This document shows positions 7,585-32,052 of a stretch of DNA of 64,000 nt, in pieces. Source of the stretch: Longimicrobiales bacterium (lineage in GTDB: Bacteria; Gemmatimonadota; Gemmatimonadetes; Longimicrobiales; Gaopeijiaceae); contig JAQWPM010000021.1 in the NCBI GenBank assembly GCA_029245345.1, forward strand, positions 248,001 through 312,000. Direction: 5' to 3'. The notes beneath the pieces are model-generated. The model searched no databases. It was not told where the DNA came from and worked only from the letters and a program-made list of their open reading frames with translations. Numbering within the stretch: position 1 is the stretch's first letter; every line of letters begins with the position of its first letter. A program made the translations under genes and the position numbers.

Positions 7585-7820
7585 CAAGTGGCGTACCTGG
7601 GTCTTTCGGAACTGGAGAGGTGGGCGCAAAACGCCGTTCTGGAATCTCTGCACGCAGGCACGTCGATTCCGTGACCAACTGTGATGTGACGGACGTGGCG
7701 TCGCAAGACAACACCCATAAACCCGGCCGCGGATCTATCGAATACGAAGCAGGGCCACGGGGTTGCACTACAGAGCCCACACAATGTCCTTTCGGGGCCG
7801 CCTTCCCCTCAATACAGCAC

Positions 7821-11543: not shown

Positions 11544-13733
11544 CTAACGACCTGGCTGTACGTAGGTCCGCTGTGCTCGATACAAGTCTCGTCGGGCGGT
11601 CAGTTCGGGGATTCGCTGGCCCTGATCTCTAAGACGTGCTTCGGCGATTGCTTGCTCGATGAGAGACACCGCATCAATGAACCGTCCGCCTGCTGCGAAA
11701 GCCGCAGCCTGCACATCCAGGACCGCAGGATGTGGTCCGGCAATCTGCCGAATCTGGCCCGCGAGGTCGGCAGCTAGATCGGGACGGCGATTCTCCGGAC
11801 TCCCGTCTGTGGCCAGCGCCCATCCAACCGCCAGGGCTGCCCCAACGTTGCTTCCGTCAATCGCGAGCCCCGCATTGAGTTCCAATAAGGCATCCTCGCC
11901 GCGGGCCAACGAGACGAGGGTTACGGCCCGATTGAACCGTGCCGGAGCGAACTGTGGGGCGATCCGGATCGCGGCCCGGTAGTGGACCTCAGCTTCTGCA
12001 TGACGTCCGAGGTCCCGCAAGACGCTCCCGAGGTTGTTCCGAGACTCCGTGTGCACCGAGTCAATGGAGACCGCTCGCTCCAGCGCCTGCAGGGCCCCCG
12101 ACAGATCGCCTGAAGTGGCCCTAAGCCGGCCAAGGTCGTTCCACGCGGACGGATAATCGGGGAGCGCCGCCACTGCCCGTTCGTAGAGCCTGACCGCGGC
12201 GTCAGCCTCACCCTGCTCCTCCCGGATAAGCCCCATGTTGTGGAGCGCCTGAGCGTAGTTCGGGTTTATCGAAAGTGCTCGTGAATAGTCGTCCACAGCT
12301 TCGTCCAAATCGCCGATCGACTGAGCGTGACTCCCTAGTGCGAAGTGAGCCTCTGGGTCGTCGGGCTCGGCGTCGAGCCGATACATCCAACCCTCTACAC
12401 GATCGTCGACGTCCTTCGCCGCAAGCGCCTGGGCTAGTGGTATCACATCCTCCGGAGCGTCTGGCATTACCTGGAGCCAGAACTCGGCCATCTCATCCGT
12501 TGAGTTGGGGCCGTACCCACACCACTGGGGCGGATCGAACGGATTTAAGGGGTTCCCAGCGGAGTTGTCGTACAGGTACCGGATGTGCACGGTGCTTTGT
12601 GCAGGGATCGGGATCGCCTCCGAATATTGGTAGGCATCCTGCCAGTTGAAATCCCACTTCGGAATGTTCAGTAACGGAATCGAGTCGCCTGCAGGGGTGA
12701 TCGCCCACCCGTCCATCTGCTTGCCCCGATAGTGAGCGTGTGGATACACACCCAGTGCGGTCACGGAAACAGGCAACTGTATCTCATCGATGACTTCGTA
12801 GTCTGTATCTCCCGCAGGGATATCCATCGTCTGACCGCCGAGCCTCACGATCAACGGGATATTCTCTGGAGGTTCATCCGTGAAGTAGAGCCCCACTGAG
12901 ACTCCTGCATCTGCAGGCGTACCGGTCGGACGTAGGTGCAGCTGGACGACGAAGTCGGTCCCGGGCTCCAAGAGCCATGCCATGCCCGGTGGATACGGTG
13001 TCGGGATGCGTCCCGGTGTCCAGCCGAGGAAGAAGCCGCCTGGGGTCCCCGCCTCCGTCCGCGAGAACATGTCATCGAAACCCGGTAGGGAATCTCGAGC
13101 GTCCGCTAGGCGCGACGACGCCGTCTCATCCACCCTCACGGTCGCATGGTGGACCACCTTGGTATTCTTCGGCCGGAGCTCCACAGCTCTGACCCACCGA
13201 GGTCGATCGACGGACGCCGGAATCACGAAATTTCGAAACAGCTCGGGGCCGCCTCCCGGAACGGGGAAGCCCTCTTGGGTCTCCACGACAAGGTCCGGCC
13301 CGCCAAGAGTCCAACCCTCCGTGAACGTTGGCGGGTCGGGCGCCCGCTCGAGATCTCCTTCGGGCGCTCCCGATGCCGCCCATGCGACGAGCAGTTCAAT
13401 CTCGCCCTCTTCGAGAAGCCGCTCGCCATCCATGTGCGGTCCGTCCGCCGATGGGAGCCACGGAGGCATCTTCCGCGCGGACACCATCTCAGCCATGTCC
13501 TCAGCGCGTCGGGACGCCCCTGCATACCGCAACATCGAGAACGGTGCGGAGCCCTGCGGCCGATGGCACTGCGCGCACTCTCGATAGACCAACTCACCAA
13601 CACCATTCGACCAGGTGGGTGGCTCTCCCGCTCCACAGGCTGCCAAGATCGTGACGCCAAGGGCGGAGGCCGCCCAAGCACCGGACCGTAAGAGCTTGCC
13701 CAAGTGTCTGGATCGTGGTTCGCGGTAGCTCAT
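11544..13733 (-). CDS. Cytochrome c / type II copper monooxygenase-like / TPR lipoprotein
   Basis: A 729-residue predicted lipoprotein (lipobox LAAC, Cys33) with three parts. A small cytochrome c domain has CAQCH (53-57) and a distal MPPW (Met89). A region resembling the ascorbate-dependent copper monooxygenases (peptidylglycine and dopamine type) spans about 140-430. All expected copper ligands are present: HH (195-196), the histidine in QLHLRP (266), H-x-H in YPHAHYRGK (332, 334) and the methionine in STDEMAEFW (415). About eight TPR repeats follow to the end. It is the last gene of the 16 kb minus-strand cluster, 9 bp after the preceding gene, with AGGA ahead of its ATG. Family knowledge supports a copper-bound oxidative domain fed by heme; the substrate is unknown. 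Confidence 0.8.
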   Translation of the reverse strand: MSYREPRSRHLGKLLRSGAWAASALGVTILAACGAGEPPTWSNGVGELVYRECAQCHRPQGSAPFSMLRYAGASRRAEDMAEMVSARKMPPWLPSADGPHMDGERLLEEGEIELLVAWAASGAPEGDLERAPDPPTFTEGWTLGGPDLVVETQEGFPVPGGGPELFRNFVIPASVDRPRWVRAVELRPKNTKVVHHATVRVDETASSRLADARDSLPGFDDMFSRTEAGTPGGFFLGWTPGRIPTPYPPGMAWLLEPGTDFVVQLHLRPTGTPADAGVSVGLYFTDEPPENIPLIVRLGGQTMDIPAGDTDYEVIDEIQLPVSVTALGVYPHAHYRGKQMDGWAITPAGDSIPLLNIPKWDFNWQDAYQYSEAIPIPAQSTVHIRYLYDNSAGNPLNPFDPPQWCGYGPNSTDEMAEFWLQVMPDAPEDVIPLAQALAAKDVDDRVEGWMYRLDAEPDDPEAHFALGSHAQSIGDLDEAVDDYSRALSINPNYAQALHNMGLIREEQGEADAAVRLYERAVAALPDYPSAWNDLGRLRATSGDLSGALQALERAVSIDSVHTESRNNLGSVLRDLGRHAEAEVHYRAAIRIAPQFAPARFNRAVTLVSLARGEDALLELNAGLAIDGSNVGAALAVGWALATDGSPENRRPDLAADLAGQIRQIAGPHPAVLDVQAAAFAAGGRFIDAVSLIEQAIAEARLRDQGQRIPELTARRDLYRAQRTYVQPGR

Positions 13734-13742
13734 AACGGCGTC

Positions 13743-16700
13743 CTAACGCGACGGAGGCATCGCGCCACCCAGCGGTGGGACCGGTACCGCTTCCCTCGTG
13801 TGATAGACGTCGAACAACTCTGGGAACGGGTAAGCCTCGTCCTCGCCATAGGGATATCGGCTCATGCCATGAAAAGGGAGCGGCTCAACACGCCAGCCAT
13901 CTGCCGTGTTCACATCCGCGTCCTTTATCCAGCCTTCTGTGTAGATCAAGAAGTCCCTGCTCCAGCCCTCCGGGAGCGGAGGCACCGGTCCGGCGTCAAA
14001 GAGAATCGCGAGTTCGTCGCCGGGGCCCATGATGGGATATCGATCGTCGGCCTCGCCGATGAGAGGAAGGACGTCACCGTACCGTGTGTAGCTGCCTTGA
14101 ATGGGCCGCCACGGGGACTCCTCACTCACCACCTCATAGTCGAACCAATGCGGGCCAAACCGCCCGCCTTTCCTGTACTGTCGGGAAAATCCACGGTACC
14201 TGAAGTCGGCCTCAGTAGGCTCCAGCCGGTTCATCACGACTTGTGCGCGCGGGCTCCCAACCGAGACGAAGGCCTCATCCCAGTAGATGTTCATGTTCGT
14301 GCGCAGCCGCACGCGATGATCGTCCGTCGGGAAGAGTCCCGTAAGGTCTTGGATGACGGTCTTGTTCTTTCCTGACGGGAAACTCATGACCGGCACAACG
14401 GTCACCCAATCGCCCCCGACTCCCACGACTTCGAGATGCGGCATCACGGTCTCAAGTTCCTCCGATTGCGAGATAGCCACATTGATGCTGGCATCCGTCG
14501 GGAAGATCCAACCCCGCAGGTAGAGTTCGACGGACTCGTCCGTATCAAACGCTCCGAGATCCAAGACGAGGTCGTGGACCTCGCTAACCCCTTGATACCG
14601 GTCGGGCTCAAAGCTCGTCACGTAGTTGTCATCGGACGCGAGAAGCTCCGGTAGGACATCGCGCCCGAGTTGGTCCACTGCCGAAAGCGGCCGACGCTTT
14701 TCGGATACCTGGTGGAGCGAGAGGGGTGCATCCGGATCCGGCCACACGAACCGTTCGTCAACGAAGACGTCCACCGAGTCCGGGTGATCTACCACGACGA
14801 GATCGACCTCATCGATGTAGAAGACCTCCCAAAGTTCTCCAGTCACGCGCATTTCGTACCGACCGTCTCGTTCCCGTAGTGCCTCGCCCGGGATCCGCAG
14901 GTACTCTTGTGAAGGCCTCGCCGGGGCGTACTCGGTACCCCCCGCAGCCATCAAGCCCATAGGCATGCCAAGTGCACTCTTCCACATCAGGTCGGTAACG
15001 AAGGTGAAGGCCTCCCCGTCCCAGGTGTACAAGAATGGGCACGATCCTTTCAGAATCTGCTCCTCGACGACCGACTGGTTGGCCCCGGGATAGAAGAGGT
15101 TCTGCGGCACTCCGTTCGGCCACCGCACACGGACGACATCGGCGCGGGCGTGTTGTCCGAGCCCAATGTGGATGTCGGGGCCGGTCACCACTCGAGTCTG
15201 GTACAGCCCGCCGGCCCGTACCTCCAACTTCGCGCCAAGGCCGAAGTGGTTGTTCTTGCCGCTCCCCGTGGACAGGCCGACCAACTGCATCTTGAGGTAA
15301 CGGTTGGCATTACCGCCATCGTTGCGAAGGAGCCGTGCCGCACCATCTGCCGTCGATACGAAGATGTCGAGATCACCATCGTCGCCGAAATCCCCCGTCG
15401 CAATGCGCCGAAGCGGTGGCACATCGGGAAGAAGATCCGAGACGTCGTCGAATTGCCCAGCGGCGGCATTCCGGAACAACCGGATCACACCCTCGTCGCC
15501 TGACTCCCCAACAAGGAGCACGTCGAGCCACCCATCGTTGTCGAAATCGATGAATGCGGCATCGTGCACATCGAAGTCACGCGCCGACGCGAGCAGCGCT
15601 GTAGGACGATCATCCGCCCCGAACGTCGTCCCGGACTCGTTCAGATACAGCTCGACTGCACGGCCACCCCGCGGAGCGACCAGTACGTCCAAGAAGCCGT
15701 CATTGTTGTAGTCGCCAACCGAGGAGATCCCAGTACCGGCCGCATAAGACCCCAAGCCTTCCGGCCTCGCCGCAAACCGGCCGAGTCGTTCGTTGTCGTA
15801 CACCCGAGCTTGCCGACCATCGGCCGACACCACGAAGTCGATATCGTCGTCGTCGTCGAAGTCACCAAACGCCATCGACCCGCCCGCACCTGCATTGCCA
15901 ATACCGGCGCGCGATGTCACGTCCGTAAACGACCCGTCCAGGTTGTTCCGGAGCAGAAAGCCACCCGACGCGCCGGAGACGCTCAGATCAAGGTCACCGT
16001 CCTGATCGAAATCCAAGAACAGCGGCGCGCCGGCCGGAACGGACAGACCCAAGGAACTCGTCACATCTGAGAATGAGCCGTCTCTTGCGTTCCGATACAG
16101 CCTTCCTTCCCCATCGGCTGCCACATAGAGATCGAGAAACCCATCGTTGTCATAGTCGCCGAACAGCGCGGCGCTGGGCTGCCCCGAGGCAAGCCCGGCG
16201 ACCTGCGTGACATCGACGAAGCCAGTGATCTCGTTTTGGAGCAGGCGGCCGCCCACAAAGAGGTCACGGTCACCGTCACCGTCATAGTCCGCGAAAGCGA
16301 GCACACCCGTGTTCGCGGCACCCGATCCCGCCGGGATCCCGACTATGTCGGTCGCGTCGGTAAAACGCAGCGCAGCGAGTACCGTCTCTGGATCCCGTAC
16401 CTCCGTCCCAAACGTCTCGCTGAACGTCACCAAGGGGAATCCTACGAGCACGCCCCCCGGGCCCCGAAGGTCTATCAGGCCCTGTTGGTACGCGGGCGTC
16501 GTGCGCATGACGTTGTGGAACGCCAGAGCAGGCCCACGAGCGCCCGGGGCGTCTCCTGCCCGGGCTGCGACTAAAGCAGCATCGAACAAGTCCTGCCCCT
16601 CCACGGGGAATTCAGGCACAAGTTGGCGCAGGTCTTCGAGACCGACCGCAGCCGCCGACGCATCTCCGGAAGTGAGCAAGGCGCTCACCTGCTCCACCCG

Positions 16701-17225
16701 TGCCGCCACATTCGCTGGCTGAAGTTCGACCACCTGCCCTAACGCGGACGCCTGGCGGGCCGCAGCGGCAGAGTCGCCGATGTCCGCGTCCATGGACGCC
16801 AAGGCGTACAGGATCTTCACGTGTTGGGGGTCCGCTTCGAGCGCCGCTTCAAGCGTGGCCCGAGCGTCATCCGTACGATCCTGAGCCAGGAATATCTCGG
16901 CTAGAATGAGACGTACATCGGGAGCGGCGGGCTCTAGTTCGAGCGCCCGTGCCACCTCCACCTGCGCTTCAGAAAGGCGGGCCATGCGCAGATACGTCAG
17001 TCCCAGATTCGCGTAACCCAGGGGCTCCTGCGGGGCCATTTCGACGAGTCGCTCGAACTCCACTGCCGCCTCGTCGAGCCGGTTCTCTTCGAGGTAGGCC
17101 AGGCCCACGGTGCGAATGGTCAGGACCTCGGCCGGGTCCAGCGGCGGCCCAGCGTCAGCACACCCGGCCATTAAGCCCACCGCGAACATCACGTTGAAAG
17201 CCCGCCCGGAGCTTGAGAGCATCAT
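13743..17225 (-). CDS. TPR + FG-GAP propeller + ASPIC/UnbV lipoprotein with large C-terminal domain
   Basis: A 1160-residue predicted lipoprotein (LMAGC, Cys22). TPR repeats fill about residues 25-220. Then come seven FG-GAP loops (for example FADYDGDGDRDLFVGG and FGDYDNDGFLDLYVAA), an ASPIC/UnbV domain and a C-terminal region of roughly 430 residues. That region begins with SCPFLYTWDGEAFTFVTDLM. Similar regions are known from other multidomain CRTAC1-type proteins, but I cannot name the fold. The start is taken at 17225 because its ATGA overlaps the stop of the preceding cluster gene; the frame is open to 17489 but that part overlaps the neighbour and has no signal peptide. It is part of the cytochrome/propeller cluster. 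Confidence 0.82.
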   Translation of the reverse strand: MMLSSSGRAFNVMFAVGLMAGCADAGPPLDPAEVLTIRTVGLAYLEENRLDEAAVEFERLVEMAPQEPLGYANLGLTYLRMARLSEAQVEVARALELEPAAPDVRLILAEIFLAQDRTDDARATLEAALEADPQHVKILYALASMDADIGDSAAAARQASALGQVVELQPANVAARVEQVSALLTSGDASAAAVGLEDLRQLVPEFPVEGQDLFDAALVAARAGDAPGARGPALAFHNVMRTTPAYQQGLIDLRGPGGVLVGFPLVTFSETFGTEVRDPETVLAALRFTDATDIVGIPAGSGAANTGVLAFADYDGDGDRDLFVGGRLLQNEITGFVDVTQVAGLASGQPSAALFGDYDNDGFLDLYVAADGEGRLYRNARDGSFSDVTSSLGLSVPAGAPLFLDFDQDGDLDLSVSGASGGFLLRNNLDGSFTDVTSRAGIGNAGAGGSMAFGDFDDDDDIDFVVSADGRQARVYDNERLGRFAARPEGLGSYAAGTGISSVGDYNNDGFLDVLVAPRGGRAVELYLNESGTTFGADDRPTALLASARDFDVHDAAFIDFDNDGWLDVLLVGESGDEGVIRLFRNAAAGQFDDVSDLLPDVPPLRRIATGDFGDDGDLDIFVSTADGAARLLRNDGGNANRYLKMQLVGLSTGSGKNNHFGLGAKLEVRAGGLYQTRVVTGPDIHIGLGQHARADVVRVRWPNGVPQNLFYPGANQSVVEEQILKGSCPFLYTWDGEAFTFVTDLMWKSALGMPMGLMAAGGTEYAPARPSQEYLRIPGEALRERDGRYEMRVTGELWEVFYIDEVDLVVVDHPDSVDVFVDERFVWPDPDAPLSLHQVSEKRRPLSAVDQLGRDVLPELLASDDNYVTSFEPDRYQGVSEVHDLVLDLGAFDTDESVELYLRGWIFPTDASINVAISQSEELETVMPHLEVVGVGGDWVTVVPVMSFPSGKNKTVIQDLTGLFPTDDHRVRLRTNMNIYWDEAFVSVGSPRAQVVMNRLEPTEADFRYRGFSRQYRKGGRFGPHWFDYEVVSEESPWRPIQGSYTRYGDVLPLIGEADDRYPIMGPGDELAILFDAGPVPPLPEGWSRDFLIYTEGWIKDADVNTADGWRVEPLPFHGMSRYPYGEDEAYPFPELFDVYHTREAVPVPPLGGAMPPSR

Positions 17226-18967
17226 CGCCCCTCTTCTATCGATACGGTTTCGCCTGCCGAGACCGGCCCCCTTCGAGTCCGCTCCGTGCCAGGCCATTGA
17301 ACTACGATACTGTCGACCACAGAAGCCCCGCCGAGTCCAAACTGAAGTGGCACCACAGCCGACTGCGAAAGGTACGACGACGCTGTGCGCACAAACCGTC
17401 GTTGGACGCGGGTCCCGACAAACACCGAGACCGTGGCGCCGAGTCCGTTGAGGTTGGGCGCGGCTCCTTTCAGATGTACCCCGACCCACGAAGTCGGGGG
17501 CAGGTCGTTACGGAAGAGCCGCGGGGACCCTCCGTTCACAGTGACGAGTAGATCCAAGTCACCGTCCGCATCGATATCAGCTGTGGCGAGCCCACGACCA
17601 ACCACAGGTACGGTAAAGTCGGCACCCACCGCTTGGCTCGCGTCGACGAACTTGCCCGTCCCGTCACCGATGAACAGCAGGGGACGCTGTGCAAAGGTCT
17701 GATCCTGTTGCACCGCGCTGATCCCCGGTTCGATGTGTCCATTCGCACCAACAAGGTCCGGGATTCCGTCTAGGTCGAAGTCCGCGAAGAGAACCCCGAA
17801 GGTGAGCGGAATCAGCGTCGACCTGGTCAGCCGGGCGGCACCCGCTCGGTCTTGGAACAGGTCCTCGCCAATTTCGGTGAACAGTCCGACTGGCTCGTGC
17901 GCGAAGTTGCCGATGGCAATCGACCACTGCCCCGACCCCGTCAAGTCCGCGACGTCGACGCCCATGCCGGCCCTGGCTCGCCCGGCCTCATCGAATGCGA
18001 CTCCGGCCCGCACCGCAATGTCCGTAAATGTGCCGTCCCCATCGTTGCGGTAGAGGAAGTTTCGTTGAGTGTCATTCGCGACCACGATGTCTGGCCACCC
18101 GTCATCGTTGAAGTCTGCGACGACCACACCCAGAGACTTTCCCGTCTCGTCGAGCAAGCCGGCTGCTTGGGTAACGTCCGTGAACCGCCCCGCACCGCCA
18201 TTCGCGTACAGGCGGCACGACTCACCCTGATATTGCTGCGGCGTCGCATAGGACTTGGAAGACCCGTCGATCGTGGCGTACAGGTCCGTCTCAGGGCTCC
18301 ACTGCACATAGTTGCACACGAACAGATCGAGCCATCCGTCCAAATCGACATCGACCCAGGCGGCCCCAGTCGACCAGGTGGGACTCGCGGCGTCGGGGCC
18401 GCCAGGCACTCCGGCGGAAACGGTCACATCTACGAAACGTCCACCGTCGTTGCGTAGGAGGACATTCGTCCCAGTTGCCGTCAGATAGACGTCCTGATCA
18501 CCGTCTGCGTCGTAGTCGGCCGTCGTCACGCCCATGCCGTACAAGGAGATGTCTAGGCCCGCAGCAGCGGTTACGTCCTCGAACGTCCCATCCCCACGAT
18601 TGCTGTACAGTCGCTGAGTTGGCCGGGGTCCCTCACCTGAACGTCCCTCCCACCAATCCGAGTTGACCAGCAAGAGGTCTACATCACCGTCGCTGTCATA
18701 GTCGAAGAACGCGGCGCCACTACCGATCGTCTCCGGCATCCACTTCTCTCCAAACGCTCCAGTGACGTGCTCGAACATGATTCCAGAAGATTGAGTCACG
18801 TCGACGAACACCACATCCGTCGAAGCGGAGCCCCCACCAGCGCTGGCATACGTGGGTTCTGAATACTCAGGCGCGGTATCCACAGCGGGCTCTTCACCGG
18901 AGCATCCCACGATGATCAGCGCGAGCATCAGACTTGGGGCCGGCACACTCGATTTCTTCACCTTCAT
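17222..18967 (-). CDS. FG-GAP/ASPIC-UnbV (CRTAC1 family) lipoprotein
   Basis: A 581-residue predicted lipoprotein with lipobox IIVGC (Cys22). Seven FG-GAP loops can be counted, starting with FFDYDSDGDVDLLLVN and ending with TADIDADGDLDLLVTV; the fifth, VADLTGSGQWSIAIGN, has a degenerate calcium loop. An ASPIC/UnbV domain fills the last 90 or so residues. This is the plain CRTAC1 architecture, without the helical N-terminus of the 736- and 742-residue relatives. Both ends overlap neighbours by four bases (ATGA), so it is translated in step with the pentaheme cytochrome before it and the TPR/propeller protein after it. Confidence 0.85.
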   Translation of the reverse strand: MKVKKSSVPAPSLMLALIIVGCSGEEPAVDTAPEYSEPTYASAGGGSASTDVVFVDVTQSSGIMFEHVTGAFGEKWMPETIGSGAAFFDYDSDGDVDLLLVNSDWWEGRSGEGPRPTQRLYSNRGDGTFEDVTAAAGLDISLYGMGVTTADYDADGDQDVYLTATGTNVLLRNDGGRFVDVTVSAGVPGGPDAASPTWSTGAAWVDVDLDGWLDLFVCNYVQWSPETDLYATIDGSSKSYATPQQYQGESCRLYANGGAGRFTDVTQAAGLLDETGKSLGVVVADFNDDGWPDIVVANDTQRNFLYRNDGDGTFTDIAVRAGVAFDEAGRARAGMGVDVADLTGSGQWSIAIGNFAHEPVGLFTEIGEDLFQDRAGAARLTRSTLIPLTFGVLFADFDLDGIPDLVGANGHIEPGISAVQQDQTFAQRPLLFIGDGTGKFVDASQAVGADFTVPVVGRGLATADIDADGDLDLLVTVNGGSPRLFRNDLPPTSWVGVHLKGAAPNLNGLGATVSVFVGTRVQRRFVRTASSYLSQSAVVPLQFGLGGASVVDSIVVQWPGTERTRRGPVSAGETVSIEEGR

Positions 18968-21864: not shown

Positions 21865-24071
21865 CGGCCGGCCGCCCCGAGCGAGAACGGGACACGTGCC
21901 ACGGTCTCGGTGACGCCGATCCCTTCCACGATCGTGTATTCGGTGTCCACTGACACCGGCCCGATCTCTTCGACCAGACCGGTCGTCGGCCACAGGACGC
22001 TTACACTGACCGGCCCGACCGACTGGCCCAGGCCGATGTCCAGACGGAGTGGGTTCCCTCCGAAGGAGCTTCCACTCGTCACCATTCGGTGTACCTCGCG
22101 CGACACTCCGGCGTCCGAAAAACCGACCGTAACCCGTGCGCCGATCGCGGAGCGGTTTGTAGCCTGCCCCACCAGACGCAACGTGAGTGAGTGATTTCCG
22201 TGACCGGGGTTCTGGAAGAGCACGTTACGAGCAAGGTCACCCTCGTACGCTCCGCCCATCGCGGCGAACACGTCCTGATCGCCGTCCTGGTCGATGTCAC
22301 CAAAAGCGACACCATGCCCTTTTTGGATCAGGCCGAAGCCACCTGATGTTGTCACGTCTTGGAATCCCTGCCCTCCTCCGTTCCTGAACATCCGATTGGG
22401 CATCAGTGCCTGGAAATACGCATCGCCCGTGCCGAGATACAGGTCGAGCCAACCGTCGTTGTCCAAGTCCCCGAAGTTGGAACCCATCGCGAACTGGATT
22501 CGATCCAAGCTCTGTTCGACCGTGACGTCCTCGAAGCTCCCGTCTCCCCGATTCCTGTACAGTCGAGGCACCTCAGATTGATGCGGAAGGCCAAGGTACT
22601 CGGCCGCTATGTCGCCGAAATTCGTGCGATAACCCGCAACGTAGATATCGAGCCACCCATCGTTGTCGAAGTCCCAGAACCACGTCGGAAACGCATCCAC
22701 CGGCTCTGAGACCCGCGCCTCGATCGTGCGGTCGCTAAAGCTCCACCGCCCGCCTGCCCCCGGTCCGTCGTTCCGTAACAAGACGTTCGGCGCGTTCGTC
22801 CTCGAGACGTAAAGGTCCGGCCGACCGTCGTTGTCATAGTCTCCGGAAGCGACCCCTTTCACAATTCCCACGACAGCGACCCCGACTTCCGCGGCTACGT
22901 CCGAAAAGGTCCCGTCACCTTCGTTCCTGAAAAGTTGGGTCGGGTGTACATCGGCGCCGAAGGTCTCGTTCCCAATGAACAGATCCAGCAGCCCATCCCC
23001 ATCATAGTCCAGCCAAGCGGCGGTCTGGCTCGGGTATTGGGGATCGAGCAGTCCGGCCTGTTCCGTCACATCCTGGAACGTCCCGTCGCCCCGATTCATA
23101 AGCAGCGAATTGGGCTGACCGTCCGCGAGCCAACCACCTCGAAGAACGAACACGTCCAAATCGTCATCGTTGTCGTAGTCGGCCTGAACAAGGTTTCCGC
23201 CGCCCCACAAACCCTCTAGGCCGGCGGCGCCCGTGCGGTGCTCGAACGTCCCGTCTCCCCGATTCCTGTGGTACCGGATCGGGTCGCGTAACTGCCAGGA
23301 CGTGGACATGAGATCGAGGAGCCCGTCACCGTCGAAGTCGTCCATGACTCCCCCCCCCACGTGACCTACCTCATCCACACCCAAGGCGCCGGCCACGTTC
23401 TCGAAGCGGCTGATGTCGTGTTCTGACTCAAAGACCTCCGGAGGGATCAGCAACGCACTCGGCACTCCGTCCGGATACGTGCCGGCCATCATGTGAGCGA
23501 CGTTGAGCATCCATCGAGATCCAAGGTTGTCCGGATCCACTTCCAGATATCTCCCGTAAACCTCGGCGGCGGCGATGGCGCCACTTGGGTCGACGTGGAC
23601 GCCTGCCGTGGGCACTGGCACCGTACAGGCCACGGGCCCTGCTCCCGCAATGCAGTTCGCGAGTTCACCGGAGCGAAGGTGAGCGATGGCCAGGAAGTCC
23701 AGAATCGAAGCTAAAAAGCTGTGGGGAGCCCGGGCTTCTGGAGGAGCATCTCGCTGATAACGCTCCAACTCGATCAAGAGCGTCGAGAGCATCTCTGCTG
23801 CTTGGTCCAAGCGCCCGGAATAGAGCACCTGTTCAGCGACTGCGAGCCCGAAGAGGAGCGCCTCCCGCTCGGTCTCACGGGCCGGAAGCGCCAACATGGC
23901 GTGGACCATCGCGCTATTCGCGAACCGATTCCTGACCGGATCGACATTCGCAGCCAAGCCCTCTAGGCGTGCCGCCATGTCGACGGGCACCTCCGGCGAC
24001 GGAGTCCCGTCACAGCCTGACGCGATAACCGTCAATGCCAACGCCGTTGAGGCGGCCAGTGAAAAACGCAC
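21861..24071 (-). CDS. FG-GAP/ASPIC-UnbV lipoprotein with helical N-terminal domain, copy A
   Basis: A 736-residue predicted lipoprotein (lipobox VIASGC, Cys20) from the GTG at 24071, which has AGGAG upstream; an in-frame ATG at 24152 would give an unusually long signal region. About 200 helical residues resembling a TPR-like domain precede seven FG-GAP loops (first MDDFDGDGLLDLMSTS, last FGDIDQDGDQDVFAAM) and a C-terminal ASPIC/UnbV domain. It is paralogous along its whole length to the gene at 49970-52198: both share the segment before the first loop (RFANSAM/PFANEAR and YSGR), the EYPQGVP/TYPDGVP block and the loop spacing. Residue +2 after the lipid cysteine is Asp, which would mean inner-membrane retention under E. 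coli rules; whether that applies here is unknown. Confidence 0.83.
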   Translation of the reverse strand: MRFSLAASTALALTVIASGCDGTPSPEVPVDMAARLEGLAANVDPVRNRFANSAMVHAMLALPARETEREALLFGLAVAEQVLYSGRLDQAAEMLSTLLIELERYQRDAPPEARAPHSFLASILDFLAIAHLRSGELANCIAGAGPVACTVPVPTAGVHVDPSGAIAAAEVYGRYLEVDPDNLGSRWMLNVAHMMAGTYPDGVPSALLIPPEVFESEHDISRFENVAGALGVDEVGHVGGGVMDDFDGDGLLDLMSTSWQLRDPIRYHRNRGDGTFEHRTGAAGLEGLWGGGNLVQADYDNDDDLDVFVLRGGWLADGQPNSLLMNRGDGTFQDVTEQAGLLDPQYPSQTAAWLDYDGDGLLDLFIGNETFGADVHPTQLFRNEGDGTFSDVAAEVGVAVVGIVKGVASGDYDNDGRPDLYVSRTNAPNVLLRNDGPGAGGRWSFSDRTIEARVSEPVDAFPTWFWDFDNDGWLDIYVAGYRTNFGDIAAEYLGLPHQSEVPRLYRNRGDGSFEDVTVEQSLDRIQFAMGSNFGDLDNDGWLDLYLGTGDAYFQALMPNRMFRNGGGQGFQDVTTSGGFGLIQKGHGVAFGDIDQDGDQDVFAAMGGAYEGDLARNVLFQNPGHGNHSLTLRLVGQATNRSAIGARVTVGFSDAGVSREVHRMVTSGSSFGGNPLRLDIGLGQSVGPVSVSVLWPTTGLVEEIGPVSVDTEYTIVEGIGVTETVARVPFSLGAAGR

Positions 24072-24160
24072 GCCGTGATCGCTCCTGGACAAAGTAGGCG
24101 GGCCCGAGGGGCCACGAGAAGACTGGATGGAGAGGAACATGCTCGGCGCCAACTAGGCGA

Positions 24161-27100
24161 TCAAGACGGATTCCACCGGACGGTTACTTCAGTCGCTCCG
24201 CTATCTATGGCCTGTTCCACTGTCCTCCCCCACGGCCACCTCACTTCCACCGCCCGGGGAACACCGGAAAGCCCGAGGATCTGTACGGGGTCATCACTGG
24301 ACCAGTATCCGGCTCCGGAGTGGACTTCTCGGGCCGGGCCAGCCGTCCCGGCATACAGAACACGCATGGTCGCACCGATGCCCATCGGATTCCCAGGTGG
24401 GCCCACCAATCGTACTCTAAGCCCCGGCTCGGAACCTTCATTCTTGAACAGTTTGGTCTCTGCCCCGTGCTGTGCCACAGCAAGGTCGACGCGCCCATCG
24501 CCATCGAAATCCGCCATCGCTGCCCCGCGTTGGTCCCCATACGCGACGAGTCCGGAAACACGACCAGGCACTGCGGCGACACTCCCGTCGCCTCGTCCGA
24601 GCAACAAAAGTCCCCGCCCCGCGTCGTACCGAGGCGAGAATCTCTCCGTCGGGAAGAAATTCTGGGTGATCACGATGTCCTCCACTCCGTCTCCGTCCAG
24701 GTCCCCGACGCCAGCATGATGCGCGGGCGCAAGCTGCGCCTGGGTCGGTAAGGGAATGGCGTCGAAACCGGAGCCCGTGTTGAGGAAGGCCGTGTGGGCC
24801 AAAATGGTCACATGGGTCTGAAAGAGTTGAGCTGTCTCAACGCCAAAGACCTCAGCCAACGTGGCTTGGCTGTATGCCTGGAAACTGTCTAGTCGCCCCC
24901 TTACGGCCGGCAGCGCGGAGCGCACCTGTTCGTACCGAGCCAACGGAAAGAGTGGGCCACCCACCTCGCGGGCTCTCGACAAGCCGATCTCCCAGGTACC
25001 GCTCTGGTCCACATCAGCATACGCCAACGTCAGAGGGCGGTCGTTGGACGTTTTCAGTCGGGTATTCAGGCCTTCGTTGGTAGCGACCAGGTCCATGCGT
25101 CCATCACCGTTCAGATCTCCCGCGGTGATCCCACGCCATAACCCCCGGCTGCCCGCCAAGCCCCATGCGTCCGTGACGTCACTGAATCGGCCGGCATCGT
25201 TGAGGAAGAGGCGTACCGCCCCCCACTCGATCGCCAAAGCGAGGTCCGGGTCACCATCGGCATCGACGTCGGTGAACACCGCTCCGGATACCAAGCCCAG
25301 GTCAGTGAAGAGGCTGACCGAGTCCTCGAAATACTCACCGCCGTCATTGATGAGCAGTCGAGATGTAGCGGGCAGAGGGTAGAAGGCCGGCACGCTGCGC
25401 CCCCCGACGAATACATCGAGATCACCGTCACCGTCGACGTCCACCTGAGCCAGTGGCCCGACGGAGGAAAGGCTCGGCTCTGCGAGCGGCGCGGGAGCGC
25501 CGTGACCGTTCGGCTCGTAGCGCACGACTCCGGACAGCGCCCGAGCCTCCTCGGGACTTCTGGAGTCGAAACTCGTTTGGCCCGCAATAAACGCCACACC
25601 GTCGGGGCCCCACGTGGGGAGCACCGTCGTGAGGTCATGGGCGGTCACCGCACCAACCACTGAAGTGAAGCGCCCGTTGTCGTTCCGCAGCAGCGTCCTC
25701 GACTGCGCCTGACCAGCTGCGACCACAAGATCTGGATCCCCGTCACGGTCTACATCCGCCCAGGTCACCCCAGGCCCTAGCCGCGACAACTCATATGGTA
25801 GGAGAGGCTGTCGGCCGAGATCGGGAAACGCGACATCGGAATGCCGGTGCGCTATGAGATCCGAAACGTCTTGGAAGATCGGTTGGTCCAGGGTGGGGTC
25901 GCCCGGAGTCGTTGCTACAGCCCCCTCTTCGCGGATCTCGTAGACCCGATTCGCCCCTGCGGGCACTCGGGTGATGCGCCCACTCGGCCATTTCACCTCG
26001 AGCACCAGGTCGTCACTCAACGAATTCGCGGCGAAGGAGACCAAGTGCTCGGAGCTCGACAGGTACAAGCCAGCTCCGCGGACCTCCTTCTCCTGCGTAG
26101 CTACGGCTCCTCCGAGAAGTCGGATCCTGGCGCCGATGCCGTTCATGTTGGGTGCATCGCCGCGGAGACGCACAGCTACTCTCCCCGCAGTCGCTTCATT
26201 TCGCAAAAGAGCAGCCGGCATATTCAGTCGATTGATAACGGCGTCCAAATCGCCATCGCCGTCCAGGTCGCCGAGGGCGATCCCGTGGGACACGTCGGGC
26301 TCCGATGCGAAACCCCACTCCTCCGCGACCTCGCTGAAGGTCAGGTCCCCGTTGTTACGGAAGGCGCGGTTCCGCGTGGGGAGGTCCGGGTAAAGAGACT
26401 TCGCTTCCCTCCACGTCATTGCTCCCCTCAATCCAGAAATCCGCTCGAAGGCGTCGCCGTCCCGCATGTCGCGACCGTGCCCGTTCACAGCAAGAAGGTC
26501 TTCGAAGCCGTCCAGATCCACGTCCAGAAACACGCTCCCCCAGGTCCATTCGGATCCGTCCACCCCGGCCATCTCGGCGATCTGGGCCCAAGTGCCGTCT
26601 CCTCGTCCCAAGAAGAGGGTGTTACGCCCTACCTGGGGCCGGTCGGCCACCGCACCGATGGGCTTTTCGATCGCGGCATGGAGCGGTACCTGAGTCAACC
26701 GCCGTGCTGGATCCGAGCTCAACATGTCCGCAACGAAGAAATCCATGTGGCCATCGCGATCCACGTCGGCGAAGTCCACAGCCATGGAGGCGTGACTGGT
26801 CGTTCGCAGCGCGAAGGGTGCGGCTGCCGTGAACGTGCCCGCACCGTCGTTGATCCAAAGCTGATCCGGATCGTCAAAATCGTTGCACACGTACAGATCG
26901 GGATCCCCGTCTGCGTCTACGTCGAAGAAGCCGACAGCGAGTCCGAAGTCGTCGAGGTCACGCGTGAGGGGTCGCCCGTCCTGATCCAAGAAGCGGCCTT
27001 CAGTCCAAGACACTGCCGCGAAGGCTCCCGTTCCATCGTTCAAATAGAGCCGGTCAGTGTCGGCTTGTTCGACGGCCACCTCTACCCCGTCTCGTGTCTC

Positions 27101-27820
27101 GATACGGAAGTGGCCCCGGAACGCCTCGACAATTTCCGGCCCATCTGGCCCCTCGACCACCAGTTCGACCGACGCGTTCTCGTATGGCCTGAGGACGTCC
27201 GCTGCGCTCTCCACCTTATAAGCAGCCACATAGAGATCGAGGTCACCATCACCATCAATGTCGGCCAGAGCCGCGCTCGTGCTGCCCAATGTGGAACCGA
27301 GTCCCACCCGGTCCGTCACGTCCTCGAAGGTGCCGTCTCCACGGTTGTGAAAGAGGGCGTTCGGGCCCCCGAGCGCAGTCACGAACAAGTCGAGTCGTCC
27401 GTCTCCGTCCACATCTGCGAACGCCGCGCCTGTGGAGTAGCGTCCATCGGCGACGACACCCGCAGTGGCTGTCACGTCTTCGAAGCGCCACCCACCGAGA
27501 TTGCGATAGAGCGCGTTCCCGCCCTCCAGGCGCGAGAAATACACGTCGGGCAAGCCGTCCCCATCGTAGTCCCCGATCGTCACGCCGGAGCCAATAAGGA
27601 GATGATCGTGGTCACGGGCGGTCTCGGTGGACAGCCGATTCTCGAAGTCGATTCCCGTCCGGCGCGACGACATAGACTCAAACCCTGCCGCCCCGCGTGA
27701 CGGCACCGCCACGTCACGCCAACGATACGAACCCTCGTCCTGCCACGTCGTCGGCTGCTCGGGTGCACAGGCACCAGAAGCCACGAACAATAGGACGGCT
27801 AAACTGGCCCGCAACATCAT
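24161..27820 (-). CDS. Two-propeller FG-GAP/ASPIC-UnbV lipoprotein, copy 2
   Basis: A 1219-residue predicted lipoprotein (VASGAC, Cys18), the first gene of the 16 kb minus-strand cluster. It has seven FG-GAP loops, a UnbV domain near residues 545-625, seven more loops, and a second UnbV domain from about 1130 to the end. The opening TWQDEGSYRWRDVAVP is shared with the two other long paralogues. In the second set the fifth loop (YADVDQSGTWEIGLSR) has lost most calcium ligands, as in both paralogues. An 89 bp gap separates it from the next gene. It diverges from the TonB-dependent receptor across an 88 bp space, which suggests shared control. Confidence 0.86.
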   Translation of the reverse strand: MMLRASLAVLLFVASGACAPEQPTTWQDEGSYRWRDVAVPSRGAAGFESMSSRRTGIDFENRLSTETARDHDHLLIGSGVTIGDYDGDGLPDVYFSRLEGGNALYRNLGGWRFEDVTATAGVVADGRYSTGAAFADVDGDGRLDLFVTALGGPNALFHNRGDGTFEDVTDRVGLGSTLGSTSAALADIDGDGDLDLYVAAYKVESAADVLRPYENASVELVVEGPDGPEIVEAFRGHFRIETRDGVEVAVEQADTDRLYLNDGTGAFAAVSWTEGRFLDQDGRPLTRDLDDFGLAVGFFDVDADGDPDLYVCNDFDDPDQLWINDGAGTFTAAAPFALRTTSHASMAVDFADVDRDGHMDFFVADMLSSDPARRLTQVPLHAAIEKPIGAVADRPQVGRNTLFLGRGDGTWAQIAEMAGVDGSEWTWGSVFLDVDLDGFEDLLAVNGHGRDMRDGDAFERISGLRGAMTWREAKSLYPDLPTRNRAFRNNGDLTFSEVAEEWGFASEPDVSHGIALGDLDGDGDLDAVINRLNMPAALLRNEATAGRVAVRLRGDAPNMNGIGARIRLLGGAVATQEKEVRGAGLYLSSSEHLVSFAANSLSDDLVLEVKWPSGRITRVPAGANRVYEIREEGAVATTPGDPTLDQPIFQDVSDLIAHRHSDVAFPDLGRQPLLPYELSRLGPGVTWADVDRDGDPDLVVAAGQAQSRTLLRNDNGRFTSVVGAVTAHDLTTVLPTWGPDGVAFIAGQTSFDSRSPEEARALSGVVRYEPNGHGAPAPLAEPSLSSVGPLAQVDVDGDGDLDVFVGGRSVPAFYPLPATSRLLINDGGEYFEDSVSLFTDLGLVSGAVFTDVDADGDPDLALAIEWGAVRLFLNDAGRFSDVTDAWGLAGSRGLWRGITAGDLNGDGRMDLVATNEGLNTRLKTSNDRPLTLAYADVDQSGTWEIGLSRAREVGGPLFPLARYEQVRSALPAVRGRLDSFQAYSQATLAEVFGVETAQLFQTHVTILAHTAFLNTGSGFDAIPLPTQAQLAPAHHAGVGDLDGDGVEDIVITQNFFPTERFSPRYDAGRGLLLLGRGDGSVAAVPGRVSGLVAYGDQRGAAMADFDGDGRVDLAVAQHGAETKLFKNEGSEPGLRVRLVGPPGNPMGIGATMRVLYAGTAGPAREVHSGAGYWSSDDPVQILGLSGVPRAVEVRWPWGRTVEQAIDSGATEVTVRWNPS

Positions 27821-27908
27821 GGCATCGTCAACTGTCTGTTAGCGTGAGCTGTTACGACACAATCTACACGACCGGTCCTTTCCCAACTGTCGAAAAGATA
27901 GCCTTCAT
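27821..27908. promoter_or_regulatory. Divergent promoter region between the propeller cluster and the TonB receptor
   Basis: This 88 bp gap must carry promoters for the long minus-strand lipoprotein/cytochrome cluster and for the receptor. It is less GC-rich than the genes beside it. I could not assign definite -10/-35 boxes, and no strong Shine-Dalgarno precedes the receptor ATG. Confidence 0.4.
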
Positions 27909-30900
27909 ATGAAATGCGCCCATCTTTCCGTGGTGTTCTTCGTCACGGTCGTAATTTCGTTGCTCCTGTCCGTTCAGACCGCCTCCGGACAGTCTCAAAC
28001 GAGTTCGGCGATCCGGGGCGTAGTGCTCATAGCGGACGACACGCCCATCGTCGGGGCAACCGTCATCGTTCGGCACGCTCAGACCGGCGTCGAGAAGGGA
28101 TCGCTGAGCAATGCGGACGGTCGCTTTCTGCTTCTCTTGCTCCAGCCGGGTGGGCCATACGAGCTGACCATCAGCTATCTGGGGTACTCCGACCTCACGG
28201 TCGAGGGCATCCAACTCCAAGTCGGCGAAACACAGACACTCACGATCTATCTCACCGAATCTGCGATCGAGGTCGAAGGCATCGCAGTCAACGTAGAGCG
28301 CGACGAGATCTTCAATCCGGGCCAAGTGGGTCCTGCCACACTTCTCAACGAGCGGATGGTCGAATCTGTACCGATCCTTTCTCGCGATGTCATGGAGCTC
28401 GCCAATCTTTCTCCGCTGGTGAAGACCACCGAGAACGGCGGCTTCTCCATCGCCGGGCAGAACGACCGCTACAACCAGATACTCATTGACGGCGTGACGA
28501 ACAAAGACGCCTTTGGCCTCACTGCCGGCGGTGTCCCTGGGGGCCAGGCGGGCGCCAAAATGCTGCCTATCGACGCCGTGGCTCAGTACGAGATTCTCGT
28601 CGCACCTTTTGATGTCAGGCTGTCAGGCTTCACGGGCGGAGTGATGAATGCGGTGACGAAGACGGGTACGAATGACTGGAACCTGCGCGCCTTCGGAGTC
28701 GGCAGACACGAGGCTCTCATGGGAGACCTCAGCCTGCCAACAGGACTGGTGAACGCCACAGGAGTCGACCGATCCCTATTCGGCTTCAGTGCAGGGGGAC
28801 CGATCATTCGCGACCGAGCACACTTCTTCATTTCTACAGAATTCGAAGAGCGCCGGCAGCCGCCAACGGGGTTCAACCTGCTCCGCGACGCCCCCTCGTT
28901 AGTACAGGTAACCGACGAATCAATGGGAGCGTTCCAGCAACTGTTCCAAAATCAATTCGGTGTGGACACGGGCCTGAGCGGACCCTACGCCCTCGAACAA
29001 GACCTCGCGAACATCTTCGCCCGCGTCGATGCCACAGTCGCTCAGGGACATAGACTGACCGCCCGTACCGTGCTCGCGAGCGCCAACAACGAAGAGGCGC
29101 CGAACCGCGCCGCTTTCGAGCCCTATGAGCTGTCGTCGAACGCCGTGCTACGCAACTCCCAGACGACCAACACCTCGATCCAACTATTCTCGGAGTTGGG
29201 CGCTCGAGGTGGGAACGAACTCGAATTCTCGATTCAGAGAACGACGGATGAGACCACGCCATCGTCGCCTTGGCCGCAAGTCGAAGTCGAACTCCGGAGC
29301 CCAGTCGGAAACGGAACGTCATACAGCCGAGCGGTTCGGGCCGGCTCTCAGTTCTTTGCTCAGGAGAACGACCTGGTTCAGACCAGCTACCGCTTTCAAA
29401 ACACAGTCACGCTTCCCACTCAGGGCGGCAGCACATACACACTCGGTCTGCTGGCTTCACTGAACTCCGTCGAACATCAGTATCTCCCGGGGTCCAAGGG
29501 TGACTTCTATTTCGCGAGCATGGATGACGTCGCGAACAACGCCCCTAGTCGATACCAGCGAACCGTCTTGCTACCGGGACAGGCCCCGGCCGTCGACTTC
29601 TCTGTGCTCGAATGGGGCGGCTACATACAGAACGAGATCGACGCGGGCAAAGGGCTGACCATGCGGTTCGGCTTCAGAGTCGACGTCCCCACCCTCCTCG
29701 ACAGACCCGAGTACAACCCGGAACTCGACGAGCTATTCGGTTTCGACACCTCAGCGCCTCCGAGCGGCCAAGTGCTCTTCTCGCCTCGTTGGGGCTTCAA
29801 CTGGCAAAGTGACGGCTTCCGTACCACTCAGGTCCGTGGAGGTGCCGGCTTCTTCACTGGCCAACTTCCCTACGTCTGGCTGGCAAACGCGTTCCACCAC
29901 AATGGCCTCCGGTCCCAGACCGAGGTGTGCACCGGCCGCTGGACGGACGATCCACGAACTGGGAATACGGCACCGGGCTTTACTCCTGGAACGCCGCCCG
30001 TCGGGTGCATGAATGGCAACGCCATCACGGTCAAGCCGGCTACGGTGTTCGCGGACGACTTCGAATACCCGACGTACATCAAGTTCTCGGCAATCGTCGA
30101 TCACGAAATCTCCGACCGCCTGAACGGTTCACTGGGCTTCTTATTCTCACACGCGCGCAAGCAGGTGACGGTACAGGAGCAGAATCTTGACGGACCGAAG
30201 CGCCCATTGGGCTCTCTTGAGGGATACGGCGGGACCGCACGAAGCCATTTTGGTGACGCCACTTCGAGCGGATTCGCGCCTAACCGCGATCATCCCGAGT
30301 ATGATCAGGTCCTTTTGGTGGCGAACGGAGGAACCGACTGGACGTATTCCTTCACCGCGGAAGCCAGGGGCTACTTCAGCGAAGACCTCGCATTCCAGGC
30401 CGGCTACTCATATGCGCGCTCCTTCGATCGGATGAGCCTGACGTCTGCGGACATGATCTCCAACTTCGGGTTCAACGCCACAGAGGGCAGCCCTAATCAG
30501 CCGTCTATGACAGCGTCGAACTTCGACCGTCCACACAAGTTCGTTTTCTCCGTGTATGGCCGGCCATTTCCCAGCGTGTCCAATACAGAGTTCTCTCTGC
30601 TCTACACGGCTCAGTCCGGTCTTCCGTTCTCGTATGTGTATCGGGGGGATATGAATGGGGACGGCTATCCCGCTCTTGGCCCGGCATTCGACCGGTTCAA
30701 TGACCTTCTTTACGTGCCCAACGTGGCGTCTGAAGTGCCGTCTGGATTCGCCACGCTCGCTCTGCTCGGAGCGGCGTTGGAGAGCGATGAATGCCTGGCC
30801 GCTAATAAAGGCGAGATCCTGAGACGGAACGCCTGTCGGGCGCCTTGGCAGCACCATCTGGATCTGAGGGTGACTCATGCGATCGACGTGGGTGGATCTG

Positions 30901-31187
30901 AGATTCGATTGGAGGCAGACATGATCAACGTGCTGAACCTGATCAACTCCGAATGGGGGACGATTCAGTCCATTCGCAGCAACGTTCCGCTCCTAGAGCC
31001 GACGGGTCGAACCGAGAGCTTGAGCACCACGCCCGGCGAACTCTCTTCGCGATGGGCGGGCGGTCAGTTGCCAGCACGAGATTCAGAGGGACGACTCGTC
31101 CCCCCCAAACCATGGTCCGTTCTCACCCCTGACTCCCAATGGCAAGCGCAACTCGGTGTGCGAGTTACATTTGGAGGACGCAATTAG
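27909..31187 (+). CDS. TonB-dependent receptor, Oar-like, with carboxypeptidase-regulatory N-terminus
   Basis: A 1092-residue outer-membrane transporter. A signal peptide (cleavage near QTASG/QSQ, about residue 27) leads to a carboxypeptidase-regulatory-like beta-sandwich (about 36-115). A plug domain follows (about 125-255, with QILIDGVTNKDAFG and GGVMNAVTKTGTN), then a long beta-barrel. The second half contains many alternating strands and a cysteine-bearing loop (VCTGRW to GCMNG). The architecture matches Oar/SusC-like receptors, but no SusD partner is nearby. It diverges from the propeller/cytochrome cluster and is followed by a plug-only TonB protein. The substrate is unknown; such receptors bring in large or scarce compounds using proton-motive force through TonB. 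Confidence 0.9.
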   Translation: MKCAHLSVVFFVTVVISLLLSVQTASGQSQTSSAIRGVVLIADDTPIVGATVIVRHAQTGVEKGSLSNADGRFLLLLLQPGGPYELTISYLGYSDLTVEGIQLQVGETQTLTIYLTESAIEVEGIAVNVERDEIFNPGQVGPATLLNERMVESVPILSRDVMELANLSPLVKTTENGGFSIAGQNDRYNQILIDGVTNKDAFGLTAGGVPGGQAGAKMLPIDAVAQYEILVAPFDVRLSGFTGGVMNAVTKTGTNDWNLRAFGVGRHEALMGDLSLPTGLVNATGVDRSLFGFSAGGPIIRDRAHFFISTEFEERRQPPTGFNLLRDAPSLVQVTDESMGAFQQLFQNQFGVDTGLSGPYALEQDLANIFARVDATVAQGHRLTARTVLASANNEEAPNRAAFEPYELSSNAVLRNSQTTNTSIQLFSELGARGGNELEFSIQRTTDETTPSSPWPQVEVELRSPVGNGTSYSRAVRAGSQFFAQENDLVQTSYRFQNTVTLPTQGGSTYTLGLLASLNSVEHQYLPGSKGDFYFASMDDVANNAPSRYQRTVLLPGQAPAVDFSVLEWGGYIQNEIDAGKGLTMRFGFRVDVPTLLDRPEYNPELDELFGFDTSAPPSGQVLFSPRWGFNWQSDGFRTTQVRGGAGFFTGQLPYVWLANAFHHNGLRSQTEVCTGRWTDDPRTGNTAPGFTPGTPPVGCMNGNAITVKPATVFADDFEYPTYIKFSAIVDHEISDRLNGSLGFLFSHARKQVTVQEQNLDGPKRPLGSLEGYGGTARSHFGDATSSGFAPNRDHPEYDQVLLVANGGTDWTYSFTAEARGYFSEDLAFQAGYSYARSFDRMSLTSADMISNFGFNATEGSPNQPSMTASNFDRPHKFVFSVYGRPFPSVSNTEFSLLYTAQSGLPFSYVYRGDMNGDGYPALGPAFDRFNDLLYVPNVASEVPSGFATLALLGAALESDECLAANKGEILRRNACRAPWQHHLDLRVTHAIDVGGSEIRLEADMINVLNLINSEWGTIQSIRSNVPLLEPTGRTESLSTTPGELSSRWAGGQLPARDSEGRLVPPKPWSVLTPDSQWQAQLGVRVTFGGRN

Positions 31188-31206
31188 CAGCACCGGGGGA
31201 CGAACT

Positions 31207-32052
31207 ATGCAGACACATTCCTTCCCGGCCAGGGTCACATATTTGGCCAGCGCCGTTCTTGCACTCGGTTTCACGGGCGGGCCAACTCACGCCGCCGAGA
31301 CTGACGTTTCTGCCAACCTGCTCGGCTACATTCACGATGAGGTCACGGGTCGCGCCATCCAGGGCGCTTCGGTTCTGTTCGAGTCGATGTCGACGTCAAA
31401 AACGACGAGCGAGCTAGGTTTCTTCACGTTCACCGACGTCCCGATCGGAGTGCACTTCCTTAGGATCGAAGCCCTGGGATACGCGGAGCGCCGAGTTCAG
31501 GTGCGTCTCTCCGACGACCAGTCGTACGAAACCGAGGTGTATTTGAGTTCGGAGGCCGTCGAACTCGAGGGCCTGAGCGTCGAGGTGATTCCAAGGAGGA
31601 CGTTCAACGAACTCCGAGATCTCGATATTCGACTTGATCGTGGTCCTGGACAGTTCATTCTCCGCACCGAAATCGACCAACGAGGGGGCAACCTTATCAG
31701 TCTGCTGCAAGGTCGGCGAGGCGTCCGAATTCAAGGAAGCGGCGGGATATCGTCAGGGCGCTCCGTCCAACTACGGCGCGCGCAGCATCTCACATCCACG
31801 GCGGCCGGACAGCACACCATCGTAGCGTGTTACCCAGCCGTGTTCGTGGACGGCCGCCGTTTTAGTCGGCGCGCGTCCCTTGGTGACCAGGAGACCGATC
31901 TAACCGAGTTCTTGTCGTCGGACATGGACGCGGTCGAGGTCTATTCGGGCTCCTCGGTGCCGGCAGTTTTCGGAGGAGGAGACGCGGCGTGTGGTGCAAT
32001 CTTGGTATGGACCCGTAGAGGCCCACAGCGTCGGGGGGAGACTAGCGAGTAG
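31207..32052 (+). CDS. Barrel-less TonB plug-domain protein with carboxypeptidase-regulatory domain
   Basis: A 281-residue exported protein starting at ATG 31207, 19 bp after the receptor stop. The signal peptide ends near GPTHAAET. A carboxypeptidase-regulatory-like domain (LLGYIHDEVTGRAIQGASV, about 35-115) is followed by a TonB plug-like domain that ends with the typical DMDAVEVYSGSSVPAVFGG and CGAILVWTRRG. The chain then stops where a receptor barrel would start. It may assist the neighbouring receptor or act as a soluble periplasmic binding module. No frameshift into a barrel is seen: the downstream DNA is a convergent lipoprotein gene. Confidence 0.8.
   Translation: MQTHSFPARVTYLASAVLALGFTGGPTHAAETDVSANLLGYIHDEVTGRAIQGASVLFESMSTSKTTSELGFFTFTDVPIGVHFLRIEALGYAERRVQVRLSDDQSYETEVYLSSEAVELEGLSVEVIPRRTFNELRDLDIRLDRGPGQFILRTEIDQRGGNLISLLQGRRGVRIQGSGGISSGRSVQLRRAQHLTSTAAGQHTIVACYPAVFVDGRRFSRRASLGDQETDLTEFLSSDMDAVEVYSGSSVPAVFGGGDAACGAILVWTRRGPQRRGETSE

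Follow-up and report, generated by a model that had tools for sequence, protein, structure and literature searches.

Conserved pairing of a predicted b-fused pentaheme cytochrome with CRTAC1/UnbV propeller lipoproteins in Gemmatimonadota

Gene organization of the cluster

The window, which is the whole 64-kb stretch of DNA analysed here, comes from a Gemmatimonadota genome of 3.79 Mb. Six genes were located on the minus strand at 11544-27820 and, after their start codons were re-chosen with the overlaps as a guide, they were connected by three overlaps of 4 bases and two short gaps of 20 and 9 bases; the initial annotation had described four-base overlaps or short gaps. In the direction of transcription, two accessory members, a double-UnbV propeller lipoprotein of 1219 aa (24161-27820) and the UnbV/FG-GAP lipoprotein UnbV_m (21861-24140), preceded the cytochrome (18964-21864), which carried a 5-TM domain, five CxxCH motifs, an Ig-like beta domain and C-terminal TPRs. 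The cytochrome was followed by its core partner UnbV_s (17222-18967), a UnbV/FG-GAP propeller lipoprotein of CRTAC1 type, then by a TPR and FG-GAP/UnbV lipoprotein (TPR-UnbV, 13743-17225), the third common core member, and finally by a lipoprotein with heme, a PHM/DBM-type copper domain and TPRs (11544-13733), hereafter the copper protein. The 4-base overlaps were found at 21861-21864 (cytochrome/UnbV_m), 18964-18967 (UnbV_s/cytochrome) and 17222-17225 (TPR-UnbV/UnbV_s). The lipoprotein-type signals were judged by eye. Among the products of the six genes, Pfam detected FG-GAP and UnbV_ASPIC domains in four and TPRs in three, and FG-GAP repeats together with UnbV_ASPIC exceeded the cut-off in the predicted proteins P0002, P0003, P0005, P0006 and P0008.

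On the plus strand, an Oar-like TonB-dependent receptor (27909-31187) diverged from the cluster, as the initial annotation had also noted, and contained CarboxypepD_reg (1.2e-18), plug (0.0015, below cut-off) and beta-barrel (5.6e-38) domains. A protein with CarboxypepD_reg and a plug-like domain but no barrel was encoded 3' of the receptor (31156-32052, plus strand). At the other end, a second double-UnbV propeller gene (7620-11522, plus strand), the actual start of which is probably 3' of the listed GTG, was convergent with the cluster. Twelve matches to the UnbV domain were counted in the genome and 10 of them fell inside the window, a clustering far above chance. Elsewhere in the window, a second pair of double-UnbV and UnbV_m genes was observed at 46296-52198 on the minus strand; its products were 50% and 48% identical to those of the cluster pair, with no cytochrome or receptor adjoining, and it represented a duplicated sub-cassette.

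Conservation of the whole block

All window proteins were compared by tblastn with loci of other genomes, and synteny was read from these matches because long antisense ORFs in high-GC DNA confused simple gene calling. The cluster was not confined to this genome, the case in which the initial annotation would have counted its model as refuted. The whole order, from the receptor through the second double-UnbV gene, recurred in G001, of the same genus, and in G020, of a different genus, while the G049 cluster contained all members except the copper protein. The receptor of G020 was 76% identical to that of the window and was followed by the plug-like gene, and the receptor of G001 was read as two pieces. 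The positions of UnbV_m and of the 1219-aa double-UnbV gene were kept in G001, G020 and G049; the convergent double-UnbV gene lay beside the cluster in the same three genomes, and the plug-like gene was kept in G020 and G049. The block had initially been drawn from the copper protein to the receptor. All of the genes named within it were present, but its limits were too narrow, since the genes at 7620-11522 and 31156-32052 are conserved with it.

Composition of the cytochrome

Residues of the cytochrome were numbered from the GTG start at 21864. In the five-helix N-terminal membrane domain, H74, H92, H141 and H155 were invariant across the two clades described below, with H74/H92 on the predicted helix 65-99 and H141/H155 on the predicted helix 132-159. 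Four membrane histidines are placed in this way in diheme cytochrome b, and the domain was predicted to be a diheme b. It had no firm family in Pfam, where only DUF4405 was matched, at E ~0.007, in the second clade. The five c-heme motifs were invariant and in conserved order in both clades, and the motifs, running from C285 to H504, were invariant in 13/13 aligned members. The cytochrome is thus predicted to be loaded with seven hemes, two b and five c. The name "pentaheme cytochrome" in the initial annotation was right about the five c-type motifs but incomplete, as the diheme-b-like membrane domain adds a predicted two.

Full-length alignments against the PDB were swamped by TPRs, and the searches were repeated without them. 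The profile matched Thermochromatium tepidum c552 (PDB 5ze8) at E=4e-7, and the ExtKL model matched 12 of the 13 members, with a best E of 1.2e-9, although the match fell far short of that model's own cut-off. The top PDB match in Foldseek was also 5ze8 (E=1.5e-6), obtained with a low-confidence predicted model that had a mean pLDDT of 48 in the heme region and no hemes modelled. An Ig-like beta domain was seen at 556-750 of the model, with a weak collinear match to residues 296-363 of c552. Judged from these profiles and the predicted fold, the cytochrome is related to the pentaheme cytochrome family that includes ExtKL and Thermochromatium c552. In the periplasmic part, only four invariant histidines outside the motifs (301, 436, 525 and 600) were available for five c hemes, which may leave one of these hemes with an open site.

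Pairing of the cytochrome with UnbV propellers across Gemmatimonadota

A search with an alignment from which the TPRs were removed showed a patchy distribution of the cytochrome, which was found in 63 of 395 Gemmatimonadota genomes. A UnbV gene was directly downstream of it in 39 of the 39 loci whose sequence reached far enough (a script gave 38 of these, and L129 was read individually; some are close relatives, so that they do not count as 39 independent events), and the two genes overlapped by 4 bases in 22 of the 39. The trees of the cytochrome and its UnbV partner agreed (mirrortree r=0.93, 0/999 permutations), in part through shared species history, and supported splits conflicted in 2 pairs only. 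The cytochrome (18964-21864) and the UnbV/FG-GAP lipoprotein encoded next downstream make up the conserved core; their constant adjacency speaks for linkage, not for binding. The initial annotation had modelled an inner-membrane, quinol-linked cytochrome with a lipoprotein scaffold, and a cytochrome of this type as the centre of the locus, conserved with propeller lipoproteins, was supported. A fusion of the cytochrome with UnbV, suggested by open frames of 1,600 aa in L122 and L123 (G168 and G184), was rejected: the two genes were in the same frame, with a stop codon between them.

The cytochromes were divided into two clades. Those of the window's clade were ~970-1000 aa in length with TPRs at the C-terminus, whereas those of the second clade were ~720 aa, lacked TPRs and had CX4CH as the first heme motif, and here the UnbV partner bore a C-terminal extension that was read as TPRs. 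That TPRs can be carried by one or the other of two adjacent gene products hints at a single assembly but does not prove it. A TPR-bearing UnbV gene was also found near the cytochrome, on either strand, in ~26 of the loci and in both clades. The C-terminal domain of TPR-UnbV (~440 aa; 13743-15119 of the window, minus strand) contained a CPFLYxWDG motif and was strongly conserved, at 55-78% identity; no Pfam family was matched by this domain, and its predicted structure (pLDDT 41) was uninformative.

Other propeller proteins held accessory positions beside the pair in other lineages, namely an FG-GAP_2/LVIVD protein in the Palauibacter-type locus L067 (4721-7246, minus strand) and a sortilin/BNR protein in L078 (18625-21885, plus strand) and L083 (18267-21509, plus strand). 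The distribution outside Gemmatimonadota comes from one scan of named genomes, in which the locus was met on contigs named Gammaproteobacteria (L089, VXNP01000066.1) and Latescibacterota (L087, JAAXHW010000282.1); both may be misbinned contigs, and L089 has the same neighbours as loci of the Palauibacter type, a hint that it was misnamed or misbinned.

Copper protein and TonB-dependent receptor

The copper protein (11544-13733) contained one c-heme motif (CAQCH), a PHM/DBM-type domain and TPRs. Its putative copper ligands H195, H196, H266, H332, H334 and M415, in the pattern HH, H, HxH, M, were invariant across 21 aligned sequences, and a trimmed profile matched PHM at E=2.4e-6. Cu2_monoox_C of Pfam was detected in only 3 of 13 members and was absent from the window protein itself. 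With all six ligands present, the description "copper-monooxygenase-like" was well chosen: the sequence marks the protein as a genuine distant relative of peptidylglycine monooxygenase, with the activity as a prediction. Its role as the destination of electrons, which had also been proposed, was not supported. The copper protein was at the cytochrome locus only in G000, G001 and G020, 3 of ~39 loci, and was missing from the otherwise identical G049 cluster; related heme-PHM proteins were encoded many times over at other places in these genomes. It was ruled out as a core member on this distribution and is best read as a lineage-specific accessory. Genomes of family f1 (e.g. G000, G004 and G049) were found to harbour a large paralogous family of c-heme and PHM-like copper proteins, mostly ~450-550 aa, which Pfam barely recognises, with several to more than 10 matches per genome, some of them to the TPRs only.

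A TonB receptor was present by the cytochrome or cluster in 9 or 10 of the loci examined, about one quarter, and sometimes belonged to a different receptor family; none was seen in the Palauibacter-type loci. The receptor adjoined the double-UnbV gene in G000, G001, G020 and G049 and was directly beside the cytochrome in G009. The receptor, a family-level accessory, and its plug-like partner are lineage-specific additions outside the core and look like optional extras, as does the copper protein. TonB and UnbV as a general uptake pair were ruled out, because paralogous receptors elsewhere had no UnbV neighbours.

Discussion

The locus is best explained as an envelope redox module with the b-fused pentaheme cytochrome and one or two CRTAC1/UnbV lipoproteins as its core, a reading that we hold to be reasonably probable though far from certain. 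The b hemes would swap electrons with the quinone pool, and the c hemes would take electrons, in the presumed direction, over the periplasmic face, where they would feed a reaction of a putative substrate at a heme with an open site or pass to a partner that the lipoproteins hold. The UnbV propeller lipoproteins are translated with the cytochrome and probably bind it, and the TPR domain, carried by the cytochrome or by the propeller partner according to clade, would serve for docking. The cytochrome need not be a pure conduit, as catalytic or wire-forming roles have also been put forward for relatives of the pentaheme family (PMC11976967).

Several other explanations were weighed. The pentaheme domain could itself be an enzyme that reduces or oxidises a small substrate in the periplasm at a five-coordinate heme, while the propellers bind the substrate or act as stabilising subunits. 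The shortage of invariant histidines, which may leave one site open, argues for it, as does the classing of cable-bacteria relatives, with their pentacoordinate hemes, as potentially catalytic (PMC11976967); the axial ligands cannot be assigned from the weak model, however, and a non-histidine ligand may be used. We regard this as a tentative and rather unlikely proposal, although it is a sharper form of the redox-module explanation and both may be true together. An extracellular electron-transfer conduit, in which the lipoprotein propellers set the cytochrome against the outer membrane, draws on the membrane b-c fusion, as in the quinol dehydrogenases of metal reducers, and on kinship to ExtKL (PMC7096707), but the cluster showed neither a porin-cytochrome pair nor a multiheme protein of the outer membrane, and relatives in the Palauibacterales were reported as facultative aerobes (PMC10469786), so that it appears improbable. 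We assign an equally low probability to an undescribed envelope-spanning respiratory complex in which a seven-heme, quinone-linked cytochrome would pass electrons through CRTAC1 lipoproteins to the outer membrane; if true, such a hand-off would be the first redox role for the widespread orphan CRTAC1 propeller family.

In the model of the initial annotation, the heme/copper monooxygenase-like protein would receive electrons from the cytochrome, and the receptor would move the substrate or product of that enzyme. All of the parts adjoin in G000, G001 and G020, and the copper protein is a true PHM relative with a c-type heme that could feed its copper, yet the G049 cluster lacks this protein, as does every other cytochrome locus that was examined, and its heme-PHM relatives are scattered in genomes away from the cytochrome, which makes this route distinctly improbable. 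Least probable of all is an uptake system resembling SusC/SusD, in which the TonB receptor works with propeller surface lipoproteins and the cytochrome is a passenger. The receptor does adjoin double-UnbV genes or the cytochrome in the five genomes listed above, but its paralogs stand without UnbV neighbours, most cytochrome-UnbV loci have no receptor, and no SusD domain was found among the cluster proteins.

For the preferred redox module, the fixed pairing across the phylum and the TPRs on either partner lead to a testable claim, that a quinone-linked electron-transfer unit has the propellers among its subunits. The pentaheme family, met in metal reducers and cable bacteria, gains a b-fused membrane form in Gemmatimonadota, sponge-associated ones among them. 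In a literature search that covered few subscription journals, b-fused pentaheme cytochromes were nowhere reported as paired with CRTAC1, and there was no paper giving the bacterial CRTAC1/UnbV proteins, common as they are, a function. The component families are individually ordinary; their fixed pairing appears to be undescribed.

Comparison with known systems

A family of pentaheme cytochromes (PHC) with an Ig-like domain has been described that comprises ExtKL, Gsu2801 and proteins of cable bacteria, with c552 included by structure (PMC11976967). Its members, Geobacter ExtKL and Gsu2801, cable-bacteria sPHC and lPHC and T. tepidum c552, have five collinear c hemes followed by the Ig-like domain, as is predicted for the cytochrome of the window; here, by contrast, a 5-TM domain predicted to be a diheme b precedes this unit in the same chain, TPRs often come after it, and it is tied to UnbV propellers. 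The fused b/multiheme-c quinol dehydrogenases of the Geobacter CbcL type are alike in general anatomy only, with a membrane b part and periplasmic c hemes on one polypeptide. In CbcL, which combines membrane b-type with periplasmic c-type hemes, the b domain is at the C-terminus and the c domain is different from that seen here.

The literature search returned one report of CRTAC1 next to multiheme cytochromes: in Planctomycetota and Desulfobacterota, a CRTAC1/FG-GAP gene separates the alpha gene of a hydrazine-synthase-like cluster from its beta-gamma (c554) gene (PMC12758564). A CRTAC1 propeller gene lies beside multiheme cytochrome genes in both settings, but the cytochrome of the present locus is of another family and membrane-bound, and the cluster proteins gave no hit to HZS_alpha or to any domain of HZS type. 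With the type II copper enzymes peptidylglycine alpha-hydroxylating and dopamine beta-monooxygenase, the copper protein has the six copper ligands in common at similar spacing, and it differs from them by its own c-heme, TPR tail, lipoprotein-type signal and many paralogs. SusC/SusD pairs, finally, likewise place a carboxypeptidase-regulatory TonB receptor beside large lipoproteins; in the present cluster these lipoproteins are UnbV propellers instead of SusD, and paralogous receptors do not preserve the pairing.
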